This document shows, one piece after another, positions 423 to 11,277 of a DNA stretch of 36,700 nucleotides; positions within the stretch are counted from its first letter, which is position 1; each line of letters starts with the position of its first letter. The notes beneath the pieces were generated by a model, which was given only the letters and a program-made list of their open reading frames with translations, had not been told where the DNA came from and did no database searches. The stretch is taken from assembly GCA_016193365.1 (NCBI GenBank), contig JACPSI010000062.1, positions 1-36,700 of the forward strand, in the 5' to 3' direction. The stretch comes from Ignavibacteriales bacterium. Its GTDB lineage: Bacteria; Bacteroidota; Ignavibacteria; UBA10030. A program made the translations under genes and the position numbers.

Positions 423-568
423 GCATAACGTCTGGCGGCACTACGCAGTGCCTAACAAATGAAGCGCAGAGGAATGGTTGGTCATTGAGTGAGTACTTTT
501 AATATTCTTAACACTGCCTGGTTTTTGTCATTTCAAGCGAACGAACGTCGTAGTGCGGCTTGTTATGT
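423..568 (-). repeat. attC-like recombination site A
   Basis: The ends form an imperfect palindrome: GCATAACGTCTGGCGGCACT at 423-442 (arm continuing to 445) pairs with the arm CGTAGTGCGGCTTGTTATG at 549-567. The outermost bases read GCATAAC and GTTATGT, matching the R'' and R' core sites of integron attC sites. Site B (1393-1544) has nearly the same arms and a related central part (the ATTGAGTGAG/ATTGAATGAG stretch), but flanks a different gene. The site sits 6 bases after the stop of the SDR gene and 22 bases before the next start, which is the normal place in a cassette array. At 146 bp it is at the long end for attC sites. The call rests on pattern only. Confidence 0.7.
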
Positions 569-574
569 GCCGTT

Positions 575-1381
575 TTACATGAGTTGAAACTTTCTCTTGG
601 CTCCAAACTCGAAGAGCCTTGGAAAGAAGAAGTTAAGAATGGGCAGGAACTTTGAATCGTTTCCCACTCTGTATTTGAACTTTGGATTCTTCGATCGAAT
701 GACTTTGGAAACAAGGTGTGCAACAATCTCGGGCGACGGGCCGTGTTCGATGGAATCCGACAGCGCCTTCAAGACTTTAGGACGAATGCTGTCATAGTCA
801 ACGACCTTCTTAGTGGCGGACACAGATGAGTGCTGAAGGTTTGTTCGAAAGAATCCTGGTTCAACCAGCGTCAATTTTATATTGAATGGCTCAAGCTCAA
901 ATCTCAAAGATTTCGTGTAGCCTTCAAGGGCATGCTTTGAAGCGCTATAAAACCCCTGGAAAGGAACACCGATTAAACCTGCGAGTGAACCGATGTTGAT
1001 GATGTGGCCCTGTCGTTGGCGCCGGAACACGGGCAGAATTTCTTTGGTAACTCGAACAGAACCCCAGAAGTTGGTTTCGAGTTGCAATTTTGCTTGTTCA
1101 ATAGACGTTTCCTCAATAGCACCTATAACAGCCATCCCTGCATTGTTGACAAGGACATCAATGGTTGGGGTTTTTGATAACAAACCTTGAATACATTGCT
1201 TGACAGACTCGTCGGAGGTAACGTCAAGTTGAAGCAATTCAAAATCGAGGCGAACGTTGATTTTAGACGGATTCCTACTCGTACCATAGACCTTGTGCCC
1301 CTCTGATACGAGTCTATTCGCAATTGATAAACCGAAACCAGAAGTCGCGCCAGTGACGAATATGATCTTGTTCTGTTTCAT
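575..1381 (-). CDS. Short-chain dehydrogenase/reductase (classical SDR), cassette gene
   Basis: A 268-residue NAD(P)-dependent oxidoreductase of the classical SDR family, of normal length. It has the cofactor-binding TGATSGFG at residues 10-17, NNAG at 79-82, and the catalytic set Ser132, Tyr145 and Lys149 (YSASK). VEPGFFRT follows near 183. Cytosolic: there is no signal peptide. The best start is the ATG at 1381, because the protein then opens with MKQNKIIFVTG, the usual first beta-strand. The open frame extends further upstream only by reading through the attC-like site. It lies alone between two attC-like sites, 11 bases after one and 6 before the other, the layout of a one-gene integron cassette. 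The substrate cannot be read from sequence; resemblance to oxidoreductases acting on retinol-, steroid- or fatty-type substrates is only general. Confidence 0.9.
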   Translation of the reverse strand: MKQNKIIFVTGATSGFGLSIANRLVSEGHKVYGTSRNPSKINVRLDFELLQLDVTSDESVKQCIQGLLSKTPTIDVLVNNAGMAVIGAIEETSIEQAKLQLETNFWGSVRVTKEILPVFRRQRQGHIINIGSLAGLIGVPFQGFYSASKHALEGYTKSLRFELEPFNIKLTLVEPGFFRTNLQHSSVSATKKVVDYDSIRPKVLKALSDSIEHGPSPEIVAHLVSKVIRSKNPKFKYRVGNDSKFLPILNFFFPRLFEFGAKRKFQLM

Positions 1382-1392
1382 AAACCTATTTC

Positions 1393-1544
1393 GGCTAACG
1401 TCTGGCCGCACTACGCAGTGCACAACGAATGGATCCGCCTCTGGCGGAGAAATGATTTGGCATTGAATGAGCACTATAATTTCTTTTCTCTGAATTGACT
1501 TCGCCATATCAAATGAGCGAATGTCGTAGTGCGGCCTGTTATGC
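1393..1544 (-). repeat. attC-like recombination site B
   Basis: The ends are GGCTAACGTCTGGCCGCACT (1393-1412, arm to 1415) and CGTAGTGCGGCCTGTTATGC (1525-1544), inverted copies of each other. The outer 7 bases, GGCTAAC and GTTATGC, look like the simple sites of attC. The middle differs from site A but contains its own inverted segment (CCGCCTCTGGCGG near 1436-1448), as attC sites from different cassettes usually do. It lies 31 bases after the stop of the gene at 1576-1986 and 11 bases before the SDR start. Length is 152 bp. Identification is by structure and by similarity to site A. Confidence 0.7.
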
Positions 1545-1575: not shown

Positions 1576-1986
1576 TCATTGAGCTTGTGGTTGAGGCACC
1601 GGATGCGGTGGCGGTGCCTTTATCCTTAAAGTATAGCTTTCGATCTCTGCATCACCGACCGCAAATGAAAAATGCAGCTCTCCAGGTGCTGGAAGCACAA
1701 AGCCTTCGAATGACATTATTGCGCGAGCCAACAAGGAGCCTTGAAAATCAATGTGTACGGGTCGCTCGAACAGGTTTCTCTCCCCTAAAGTGATTCTCAG
1801 TCGTGCATCCACATTTGCCGGATCATCTTGCAGTCGTTCTAAAACTGCAAGCACCGTTAGTCGAGGAACTATGGCCGGGAGCCCTGCAGGAGAAAACTCT
1901 TCATAGATGTTAAACACAGAGATATGATTTGTTTGAGCATCCCGCACAACCGCGTCTGCACAGAGCAACAATTTTGGTGTTATCAT
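1576..1986 (-). CDS. DUF6941-like small protein, third gene of the cassette trio
   Basis: A 136-residue protein read from the ATG at 1986, 4 bases after the stop of the gene before it. An upstream in-frame ATG at 2079 exists but would overlap that gene by 89 bases, so I prefer 1986. It opens MITPKLLLCADAVVRDAQTN and continues with ISVFNIYEEFSPAGLPAIVPRL. This pattern of 'what we know about the subject, default behaviour' small beta-rich proteins is what I associate with DUF6941, but that is recollection, not a search. The C-terminus is a Pro/Gln-rich tail. There is no signal peptide. Its role is unknown. It shares one tightly spaced unit with the two genes at 1991-2916, and the unit ends at attC-like site B. 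Confidence 0.65.
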   Translation of the reverse strand: MITPKLLLCADAVVRDAQTNHISVFNIYEEFSPAGLPAIVPRLTVLAVLERLQDDPANVDARLRITLGERNLFERPVHIDFQGSLLARAIMSFEGFVLPAPGELHFSFAVGDAEIESYTLRIKAPPPHPVPQPQAQ

Positions 1987-1990
1987 AAGT

Positions 1991-2419
1991 TTATGCGTTA
2001 GTGAGATCAACGTTAGAAGTGCCAGAATCGGAACGACCGGGTTCCGTTGGATTATGCGAATAGCCTGGGAAGAGAACATTTTTAGTGTTTATGTGACGCC
2101 GCAAATGATGTCGCCAAATATCGGCAGCCCATTCAAGAGTGCCGAGTTCAATTGTTTGAATTCCTTCACGCGTTTCAGAATAGTCCTTAAAGGTTAGCGC
2201 AATCAGTAGGGCATAAGCTGATACAATAAGTGGAATTGGTTTTTCATCAGCCTGCAGAAGCTCATTGAGAGAGCCAACAATGTCCTGAGTTGTGTGATGA
2301 TCAGCAATCGTTTTGGTTGATTCATCACCTGCGAATCGGCGAACGAGAAACTCGGGTGTATTTGCAATTGCATAAGCTTCGATGAGTCTTGATAGAGCGG
2401 AGTTTGGGATGTCGATCAT
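1991..2419 (-). CDS. Hypothetical protein, second gene of the cassette trio
   Basis: A 142-residue protein of no family I recognise. The first 115 residues look mostly helical (SALSRLIEAYAIANTPEFLV, then SLNELLQADEKPIPLIVSAY), and the last 30 are polar and probably disordered. It has no signal peptide and no clear membrane helix, although PIPLIVSAYALLIALTF (about 62-78) is hydrophobic. Its ATG at 2419 overlaps the stop of the preceding gene as ATGA, so the two are probably translationally coupled. The next gene starts 4 bases after its stop. Being locked between an NlpC-like hydrolase and a DUF6941-like protein suggests the three act together, perhaps as enzyme with partner or immunity proteins; this is inference. 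Confidence 0.65.
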   Translation of the reverse strand: MIDIPNSALSRLIEAYAIANTPEFLVRRFAGDESTKTIADHHTTQDIVGSLNELLQADEKPIPLIVSAYALLIALTFKDYSETREGIQTIELGTLEWAADIWRHHLRRHINTKNVLFPGYSHNPTEPGRSDSGTSNVDLTNA

Positions 2420-2916
2420 GTCGTTATCCTATAGTATTTCGCGAGACTGAAGTTGTAGTCGCACTCGTTAGCTAGATGCAGGATCTCATGGTATTTCCCC
2501 CATTTGCTAACAACCAAGGGGATTCGGAGAGGATCAATTCGCGGCGTCGAAACAACTATGCCAGAGTGTTCAATGTCGCCGTCTCTTCCGTAATAAAGTA
2601 TGATGTCTCCTGGTAGTACTTGGTCTGGTGGTATTTCCTTGTATGCGTCATCTTGAAGAATGAGATTTAAGGCTGAGCTATCGTAGATCCCTGAACGTCT
2701 ACATGCAAATGTCAACCCATGGCAGTTGTACATGGGCGTTGCTTGAGATCGGATTTCTATCCTGCCGGAATACCTGCGTTCGTAATTATGGAATTGATTG
2801 CGCTCGAATTTAGAAATCTCGGTTACCTGGTAATTGTCGATTGGATTTCCGAGCTTTGTTTCGAGAGCAGGGCCCTTTCTTGAGGGAGGTGGATTTGGTG
2901 TTAGCAGTACTGCCAT
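2416..2916 (-). CDS. NlpC/P60- or CHAP-like cysteine hydrolase
   Basis: A 166-residue protein. YNCHGLTFAC at 63-72 places a probable nucleophile Cys65 at the start of a helix. LPGDIILYYGRDGDIEHSGI (101-120) carries the GD-I and H-G signatures of the papain-like NlpC/CHAP fold, with His117 as the likely base. A third polar residue could come from the SKWGKYHEI stretch (137-145). Family members hydrolyse peptide or amide bonds, often in cell-wall peptides, but intracellular versions occur in conflict systems. There is no signal peptide, so a cytosolic role or a non-Sec export route is implied. It is first in a three-gene unit (4-base overlap with the next gene). A GGGGA ribosome-binding site sits 4 bases ahead of the ATG. 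Confidence 0.7.
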   Translation of the reverse strand: MAVLLTPNPPPSRKGPALETKLGNPIDNYQVTEISKFERNQFHNYERRYSGRIEIRSQATPMYNCHGLTFACRRSGIYDSSALNLILQDDAYKEIPPDQVLPGDIILYYGRDGDIEHSGIVVSTPRIDPLRIPLVVSKWGKYHEILHLANECDYNFSLAKYYRITT

Positions 2917-3177
2917 AGATTCCCCGTCAATAATTGATGTTCAAGTAATCGATTTGATGTCTTGCCCGCCGCCGTGCATGACGCATAGCTCGTGGAATGT
3001 TAAAACCCAAAGATTCTCGTAAACGTAGCGAAATTTCGAGGAAAAAGGAAGGTTGGCCGCTTGGGCGCCACGATCGCCAATCACCCGGCAGCGGCTTGTT
3101 TCCGTGCTGGAAATTGGGGGACGTAAGAGATTACGCAGCGGCGCCCGGCTTCGCTTATCCGTTTTCGCAAAAACGCC
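2917..3177. other. Intergenic gap with imperfect inverted repeat
   Basis: No credible gene in any frame. GGCCGCTTGGGCGCC at 3056-3070 and GGCGCCCGGCTTCGC at 3139-3153 form an imperfect inverted pair about 70 bases apart. This is where the right end of the cassette region should lie, so the pair could be a decayed recombination site, but it lacks the GTTATGC-type ends seen in sites A and B. A short hairpin (CGTTTT/AAAACG) follows the HEAT gene at 3162-3177 without a T-run. Confidence 0.3.
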
Positions 3178-9535: not shown

Positions 9536-11277
9536 TGGATGATGGCAACCTTCCATCGGTATTCGTTCTCAGCCACTTTTGCCACAATAAAATAGACGCC
9601 CGATGCAACTTTTGAATGAAGAAGTGTCGACGGCACGTTTACCAATCTGTTCCCGAAAGATTCCGAAACCTGAAATTGTCCGGAAAAAACGAGGTCAAGC
9701 GAACTACTGAAGACGAAGACATCTGCGGGTGATGAGGCTGGTTCGTTGACCGGTAATGCGAGATTCGGCGCATCAGACAGACGGAGGGGATTTGGTGACG
9801 CTTCGGGTTGTAAACGAACGATGTCCCCCTTTGTCGACGAGGAGAGATACAGCGTCCGCCATCGATCCAGCTGATCAACTATTATGGACACCTTAAGGCC
9901 GTTGTTCAACACGTGGTGAGGAGTTGTGACAATCCCGGAGGTCACGCGGAGTTCGTAATTCCTCAGCGCGTTATCTTGGCGGATGACCGCTTCAACATCT
10001 GTGTTGACAACAAACGTTGTCATGGTATCCAATCCTAGTGACACCTCATACAATTGTGTCGAAAGCGGGAATGCGCCATTGGCAAAAACTGCGGTCGAGC
10101 CCGTGAAATTCGTGGTACCGTTCGGCTTAAAACGCGGATAGAATTTCCCTTCGGGATAAAACCTCACGGTGTCCGCACGATCGCCCGTAAAGTAATTCCA
10201 ATAAGAGAAGAGCGCATACTCCGATTCCAGACTCGTGCCCAATGGTTCAAGAATCATTCTCATGCTCTGCACAACCGGCTGTACTTTTGTTTGCGTCCAA
10301 ATCAGCCTCATGATATCCGAACCAAACCGCCGTGCAAGGAAATGCGCCCAAACGCTTCGCTCGTAACCTAATCTCCCATCGGTGAAAGGATTAAGCGGAT
10401 AATAGGTAAACGGAAGGGAGCGCTTCAACGCGTCGGTGAAATCACGAAAGTACATCTTGACGTCTTCGTGATAGTCATTGATCTCGTCAAACACCACATC
10501 CTCCATCCACGAGGAAGTGAGTTCATTGAAGAAGAAATCCTGATTGGGCGAACTTGTCCAGATGCCGTACGAGCCGATCTGAATTGCATGGTGAAATTCA
10601 TGCGCGGCGGTGACTTTGAGCCCGTCCATCCCCGGTGTTCTGTATCCTTGAAAGTCGTTTTCAATCACGATATGCGTCGTGTATCTTTCGTTCGGACTGT
10701 TCGGAGGTGAAAGCAGTATTTCATTGTTGAAATCCGTGTAGCCAAACGTCCCTCCGGCAAAATCGATAATGTAGATATCGTATTCGGATCCGCCTCCCAA
10801 CCCCTGATCCTCAGGCGGCTGCTCGTATCCCAACGAGTCGACTTCTTTCTGCCAGCAATAGTCGAATACGGCCATAACGGAATCGATGTACGCTTCATGC
10901 GTTCCGCTTATCCTGAATCCCGCCGCATCCAATAATGCCGGTGAATCCGTGCCCGAAGTATCGTAGTGAATGCGAAATCGATTCGAAGGGCTTGTTCTAT
11001 TTTTATCCAGTGTCAGACGGATAAGAGCTTTTTCCACATCCGAACGCTGCTGGGGAGAAAGTTGGTTTCTCTGCTGAATCGACCACAGAATGAGGCCAGT
11101 CCCGCATTTTGATTCCGTGGCGCTTGCAGACGAAGCAAAGACACTTTGAAGGGCCTTCAAAGGAGACGACGAAACACGCTCCGCTTGTTGTGCAACTTGC
11201 GATTGTACTGTGACCCGCAAGCTTAAGAAGACAGCTGCGCCAATTATGATCTTACTGCGATGCTTTGCGCGTTCCAT
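9532..11277 (-). CDS. Secreted HExxH metalloprotease with T9SS-like C-terminus
   Basis: A 581-residue exported protein. A hydrophobic signal segment (KIIIGAAVFLSLRVTVQSQ) opens it. The zinc site is AAHEFHHAIQIGS with HEFHH at 226-230, and a downstream Glu259 in SSWMEDVVFDE could be the third ligand, as in gluzincins. It resembles the putative metalloprotease family typified by myxobacterial MXAN_6640-type proteins; this is from memory. The last 80 residues (FVFSSSLDLVFSGQFQV to SGVYFIVAKVAENEYRWKVA) are a beta-sandwich like a T9SS sorting domain, without the NPFNP motif. It overlaps the preceding gene by 26 bases and couples to ccmA by ATGA. Confidence 0.85.
   Translation of the reverse strand: MERAKHRSKIIIGAAVFLSLRVTVQSQVAQQAERVSSSPLKALQSVFASSASATESKCGTGLILWSIQQRNQLSPQQRSDVEKALIRLTLDKNRTSPSNRFRIHYDTSGTDSPALLDAAGFRISGTHEAYIDSVMAVFDYCWQKEVDSLGYEQPPEDQGLGGGSEYDIYIIDFAGGTFGYTDFNNEILLSPPNSPNERYTTHIVIENDFQGYRTPGMDGLKVTAAHEFHHAIQIGSYGIWTSSPNQDFFFNELTSSWMEDVVFDEINDYHEDVKMYFRDFTDALKRSLPFTYYPLNPFTDGRLGYERSVWAHFLARRFGSDIMRLIWTQTKVQPVVQSMRMILEPLGTSLESEYALFSYWNYFTGDRADTVRFYPEGKFYPRFKPNGTTNFTGSTAVFANGAFPLSTQLYEVSLGLDTMTTFVVNTDVEAVIRQDNALRNYELRVTSGIVTTPHHVLNNGLKVSIIVDQLDRWRTLYLSSSTKGDIVRLQPEASPNPLRLSDAPNLALPVNEPASSPADVFVFSSSLDLVFSGQFQVSESFGNRLVNVPSTLLHSKVASGVYFIVAKVAENEYRWKVAIIQ

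Follow-up and report, generated by a model that had tools for sequence, protein, structure and literature searches.

A cassette array at the contig end

The window, i.e., the whole stretch of DNA that was analysed, is the entire contig C48 (36,700 b) and carries at its left end an array of gene cassettes that is truncated by the contig end. The cassettes read leftward from an attI-like site at about 2976–3006 (core ACATTCCACGAGCTATGCGTCATG, minus strand), where the attI-proximal end of the array adjoins chromosomal DNA with a HEAT-repeat gene and then ccmF (named from sequence). Nearest to this site lies the first cassette, or cassettes (1576–2916, minus strand), with three overlapping same-strand open reading frames (2416–2916, 1991–2419, and 1576–2079, the last a DUF6941 gene) between which no attC was found. 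These are followed by attC site B (1393–1544, minus strand), a cassette gene for a short-chain dehydrogenase (SDR; 575–1381, minus strand; PF00106, E 6e-47), attC site A (423–568, minus strand), and a third cassette gene with no Pfam match that is cut by the contig end (2–418, minus strand). Far to the right, NYPNPFNP-like sorting-tail motifs (about 23.7 and 25.1 kb) suggest an origin in the Bacteroidota or their neighbours.

The preliminary description had read A and B as attC-like sites bounding integron cassettes, with inverted arms, diverged centres, and short spacings to the flanking genes, and all of this was borne out. The ends are GCATAAC...GTTATGT in A and GGCTAAC...GTTATGC in B, the 12-bp outer arm is perfect in B and has two mismatches in A, and the gene ends lie 6 and 31 bases from the sites and the SDR start 11 bases away. 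On the minus strand, the R''/R' boxes (RYYYAAC/GTTRRRY type, at most one off-consensus base per box) read ACATAAC...GTTATGC in A (R'' 562–568, R' 423–429) and GCATAAC...GTTAGCC in B (R'' 1538–1544, R' 1393–1399), and site B has an uninterrupted 12-bp L stem (GGCCGCACTACG). BLAST with site A against its own genome matched C5 (78% identity, E 4e-26), site B (73%), and C151 (71%). A covariance-model search for attC matches both A (143.2 bits, E 1e-32) and B (151.3 bits, E 1e-34), which are themselves among the six training rows (C48 A and B, two sites on C5, and one each on C63 and C151), so that the independent support consists of 15 further sites at E<1e-5. Folding energies compared with shuffles were mixed (z = -5.2 to -5.8 for site B, z = -0.3 to -0.6 for site A), and Rfam at the gathering threshold, by which attC are not detectable, gave no match in the window. 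Judged by their sequence anatomy, A and B are genuine attC gene-cassette recombination sites.

Dispersed arrays in the genome

Across the 3.16-Mb genome, a draft of 167 contigs that is 97% complete, the model detected 21 attC at E<1e-5, which are spread over eight contigs (C31 8, C7 4, C48 2, C5 2, C148 2, C151 1, C63 1, and C159 1). All copies lie in cassette arrays and the strand is uniform within each of the eight contigs; occurrence of the same palindrome beside random genes in both orientations, which the preliminary description had named as counting against its reading, was looked for genome-wide and is not what the one-directional arrays show. Many of the attC lie at contig ends, which would follow if the assembly breaks at such repeats.

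The array starts resemble one another. A core CATTCYACGAG-TTAT-CG is common to those of C48, C151, and C5, and more loosely to that of C7. The copy on C48, the weakest of five, has CATTCCACGAG-(T/C)TAT-CG in common with C151, C5, and C7 and is similar to the attI at the integrase locus described below. C5 and C151 share 25 bases (ACGCRGTACTTCGTCATTCYACGAG) that were found nowhere else in the genome at up to three mismatches, and AATCACGCGGTAC is common to the start of the C151 array and the attI that follows the integrase. Since the left side of an attI is not carried by cassettes, these array starts are probably dispersed attI-like sites.

Among the cassettes, a Phd/YefM antitoxin and ParE toxin pair stands in reversed orientation in the C31 array (L045:8488-9086), and the C7 array encodes a DndB-like protein with a DNA methylase (L046:6242-8898) and a TIR/SEFIR protein (10341-10781), which may be phage-defence cassettes. 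An empty site or changed array was sought in the same genus: G001 has a homologue of the HEAT-repeat gene in different surroundings with no attC there, and this comparison gave no sign of movement.

No tyrosine recombinase was found in the 36,700 b of the window. With A and B 825 bp apart on a contig that is cut inside the array, C48 has the appearance of a CALIN as usually delimited (at least two attC spaced by less than 4 kb, and no integrase in the vicinity), and the C7 array, complete inside its contig with the integrase absent, is a true integrase-less array. The initial account of an array without an integrase thus holds for C48 but fails for the genome, where a candidate (C63:730-1623) lies beside an attC. 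Its expectation of intI to the right was correct as to direction, in that the attI-proximal end with its attI-like core lies at about 2976–3006, but no integrase is present there.

A tyrosine recombinase that lacks the I2 domain

At the Pfam cut-off, the genome encodes three tyrosine recombinases: XerD (C63, 28.5 kb), XerC (C142), and the protein of C63:730-1623, whose gene lies 254 nt from an attC; this attC and a cassette follow the gene on the same strand. The protein matches PF00589 (E 1e-39), and R140, K165, H232, R235, H258, and Y267, the catalytic residues of tyrosine recombinases, are invariant in 30 relatives. The integron integrase profile TIGR02249 matches in two segments, leaving out positions 176-234 (241 bits, below the cut-off of 265), and the best PDB sequence match, Vibrio cholerae IntI4 (2A3V, E 2e-45), is likewise split around residues 179-240, a stretch replaced by about 22 residues in the C63 recombinase. 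The skipped part of 2A3V corresponds to the IntI-specific region, which contains the I2 helix (for the role of I2, see PMC7790495), and the C63 recombinase is without this domain of ~39 residues. According to the literature, cassette capture requires I2 and no other protein contains it (PMC7790495), and its presence is what defines IntI in integron surveys (PMC9668308, PMC2426708). Inserts at the I2 position fall into two length classes, -7 to +4 aa in I2-less enzymes vs +39 or +40 aa in ordinary IntI, and the AlphaFold model of the C63 recombinase (pLDDT 84.5) has a short connection alone at this position. By fold, the nearest match to the model is the archaeal Xer 4a8e (Z 23.1, rmsd 8.7, 254 aligned), followed by 2A3V (Z 20.5, rmsd 7.2, 256 aligned).

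Downstream of the integrase lies an attI with a core that is conserved in the class (...TTACA(C/G)TAGTTA...; on C63, AATCACGCGG...CGAGTTAGGC). On the 5' side of the gene, L011:1683-1702 (AATAACGCGGTACAGCGCG) is an inverted partial copy of the left half of this attI. Several I2-less integrases of relatives (L146, L151, L162-L165, L168, L170, and L176) carry an extra N-terminal domain of ~70 aa that is absent from the integrase on C63; of six examined, three matched HARP (PF07443) weakly, at E about 1e-3.

The proposed system and its linkage in relatives

We consider it likely that the genome harbours a sedentary, multi-array, integron-like system, in which the I2-less recombinase recombines attC with attI-like sites and does so in trans. 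Read from the anatomy of enzyme and sites, the recombinase of C63:730-1623, encoded on the cassette strand with an attI following, would insert and excise cassettes by recombining the folded single (bottom) strand of attC with double-stranded attI-like sites, as in integrons. It would act in trans on at least four further arrays (C48 of the window, C5, C151, and C7), each dispersed array starting at an attI-like site behind a chromosomal gene, and polarity would probably come from the asymmetric 1-nt/4-nt spacer and the large one-sided loop above the 12-bp stem.

Among 150 relatives, the attC type occurs in 50, the I2-less recombinase in 46, and both in 31, i.e., attC are present in 31 of the 46 genomes with the recombinase vs 19 of the 104 without it (Fisher p = 1.2e-8). 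Ordinary IntI, with a strong match in 32 of these genomes and a match over the curated cut-off in 30, is not associated with the attC type (p = 1). Around 41 I2-less genes, 74 of 74 attC lie downstream on the same strand, at 21 loci from seven families, and G276 adds a further family that fits the pattern. Of the integrase loci at which no attC was detected, most extend no more than 1.3 kb past the 3' end of the gene. Ordinary IntI was found in 8 of the 19 attC-positive relatives with no detected I2-less integrase, and the covariance model found no attC near 20 ordinary IntI.

The main competing explanation is a plain CALIN, in which leftover cassettes have lost their I2-containing IntI, or this sits in an assembly gap, and the enzyme on C63 is an unrelated Xer-like protein. 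CALINs are common and their numbers are inflated by draft assemblies (PMC9024848), ordinary IntI occurs among the relatives as given above, the window has no integrase, and in a draft genome an ordinary IntI could sit in a gap. Against this stand the constant synteny and orientation with the I2-less gene, the lack of association between this attC type and IntI across genomes together with the different attC, with extrahelical bases, that are found near IntI, and the absence of ordinary IntI from the genome itself and from well-assembled attC-positive relatives such as G032, G033, G103, and G113. We therefore regard a plain CALIN as unlikely.

Action in trans is supported by G033 (10 contigs), where the only such integrase is encoded on C1 and about eight attC make up a second array on C6. 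The strict attI core was found near dispersed arrays in G113 (C17), G103 (C39), and G032 (C6), and not near those of G033 (C6), G103 (C3), and G113 (C9, C30, and C7). In G113 and G103, individual attI-like sites stand upstream of dispersed attC, and in G032 in line below the array (L280:4181, L287:7454, and L291:8505).

Beyond these relatives, 395 genomes drawn from the phylum contain the attC type in 13, all of the same class, and related I2-less recombinases in 106. No attC of this type was found near 64 more distant I2-less recombinases, and 80 loci from a scan of genomes of all species, mostly Xer-like without I2, yielded no convincing one either. The link to attC thus appears specific to one branch of the enzymes rather than to the wider lineage.

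Folding and covariation of attC

The attC type has the layout R''-1 nt-[12-bp stem]...[12-bp stem]-4 nt-R'. Its 5' arm carries a one-sided loop, and its inner hairpin measures 8-10 bp. In an alignment of 92 sites from the genome and its relatives, 93.8% of the cells are paired, vs 58% in shuffles and 31-48% in slid controls. The covariation score of this alignment, which had been fitted to the covariance model, is 0.624 vs 0.146 in shuffles, with double changes in 24 of the 25 pairs and 672 cells changed on both arms with pairing kept, a level reached by none of 500 shuffles.

This covariation bears on a second alternative, that the enzyme uses the sites in the manner of Xer, as ordinary double-stranded sites whose palindromic fold is incidental. 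The enzyme scores above the cut-off of the XerA-type family NF040815 (229.5 bits, cut-off 220), its best structural match by Z is the archaeal Xer 4a8e, and the known mode of reading folded attC depends on I2, which the enzyme lacks (PMC7790495). The arms nevertheless vary freely yet stay complementary, and since use of double-stranded half-sites needs no such complementarity, the covariation counts against a Xer-style use of the sites, which we hold to be improbable. That the palindromes might be dispersed REP-like or terminator elements is consistent with the folding energy of site A, no better than shuffles, but was rejected as highly improbable, contradicted by their genome-wide occurrence only in same-direction gene arrays, with integron boxes and beside an integrase, by the synteny, and by a reversed toxin-antitoxin cassette of the kind typical of integrons.

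The shape of the stems also bears on the integron-like reading. In ordinary attC, the R''-L'' arm has two or three extrahelical bases that are docked by I2, and without these bases deletion between two attC is impossible for IntI1 (PMC2727003, PMC7790495). Single extrahelical bases on this arm are mostly absent from the attC type described here, which in this respect departs from ordinary attC. Near I2-less enzymes and in the genome itself, the L stems divide into 70 smooth, 5 bulged, 10 ambiguous, and 11 weak; the genome contributes 15 smooth, 2 bulged (on the other arm, not R''-L''), and 6 weak stems, and the relatives 55 smooth, 3 bulged, 10 ambiguous, and 5 weak. Of the attC near ordinary IntI in the same class, ten from five genomes, all are bulged (e.g., GGCGCT[C]AAGCTG[A]CGG), so that smooth and bulged stems stand at 70:5 vs 0:10 (p = 1e-9), a bulge count biased by a model trained on smooth-stemmed sites. 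The set found without the model is small and has 19 smooth, 4 bulged, and 3 ambiguous stems (19 vs 4, p = 1e-5). Absence of the I2 helix from the protein and absence of extrahelical bases from the DNA go together. A single ordinary attC with extrahelical bases (G021, L165:745-900) lies within an array headed by an I2-less integrase, which suggests a captured foreign cassette.

Relation to known systems

Sedentary chromosomal integrons of the Treponema denticola type (PMC3607928) share with this system an integrase upstream of attI on the cassette strand, attC with R'' and R' boxes, and arrays; they differ from it in that here the integrase is without I2, the attC are mostly without extrahelical bases, and several arrays start at dispersed attI-like sites. 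In the complete genome G121 (L178), of the same class, an ordinary I2-containing IntI has its extrahelical-base attC downstream and in line, as in Treponema.

Like CALINs as called by IntegronFinder (PMC9024848), the arrays on C48, C5, C151, and C7 have no adjoining integrase, but a candidate that would act in trans exists and would be invisible to the IntI-domain profile used for such calls (PMC9668308). IntegronFinder requires an IntI-specific profile (PMC9668308) and would presumably list these arrays as CALINs. XerA and archaeal Xer proteins (4a8e, 5hxy; NF040815) have the same fold and length and no I2, whereas the enzyme on C63 is set apart by its linkage to attC arrays, its own group in the tree, and a sequence match to IntI4 (2A3V) that is stronger than that to XerA. 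The system would work like a sedentary integron but departs from two defining traits of the family, since its enzyme is without the IntI-specific domain and its attC are mostly without single extrahelical bases; we treat it as an integron-like variant whose enzyme is not to be filed as IntI. No description of an I2-less integrase with attC was found in the literature searched, which took in few subscription papers and no bioRxiv preprints.

Descent of the I2-less enzymes

In the tree, ordinary IntI form one clade (SH-aLRT 100), and the I2-less enzymes of the class form one group at 94, with L173 excepted and one archaeal row inside; the free tree places this group with other Xer-like enzymes. 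A constraint that joins the I2-less group and IntI reached a likelihood 34 units above that of the free search (AU p = 0.85). A common attC-using ancestor of both is possible on these comparisons of sequences; I2 may instead have been lost, or a Xer-like enzyme may have captured attC independently. We put forward only tentatively, as a somewhat doubtful proposal, that recombination of attC may be older than I2 and that the class may retain a living pre-I2 integron.

An I2-less integrase family with attC that lack the bases docked by I2 would mean that folded DNA can be read in a second way. Living enzymes could then be used to test how single-strand recombination arose, and some of the arrays now called "integrase-less" would be reclassified. 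The archaeal sequence within the I2-less group of the class is a recombinase of Candidatus Undinarchaeales (L201, JASMDC010000021.1), whose contig ends at the 3' end of the recombinase gene, where an array would start.
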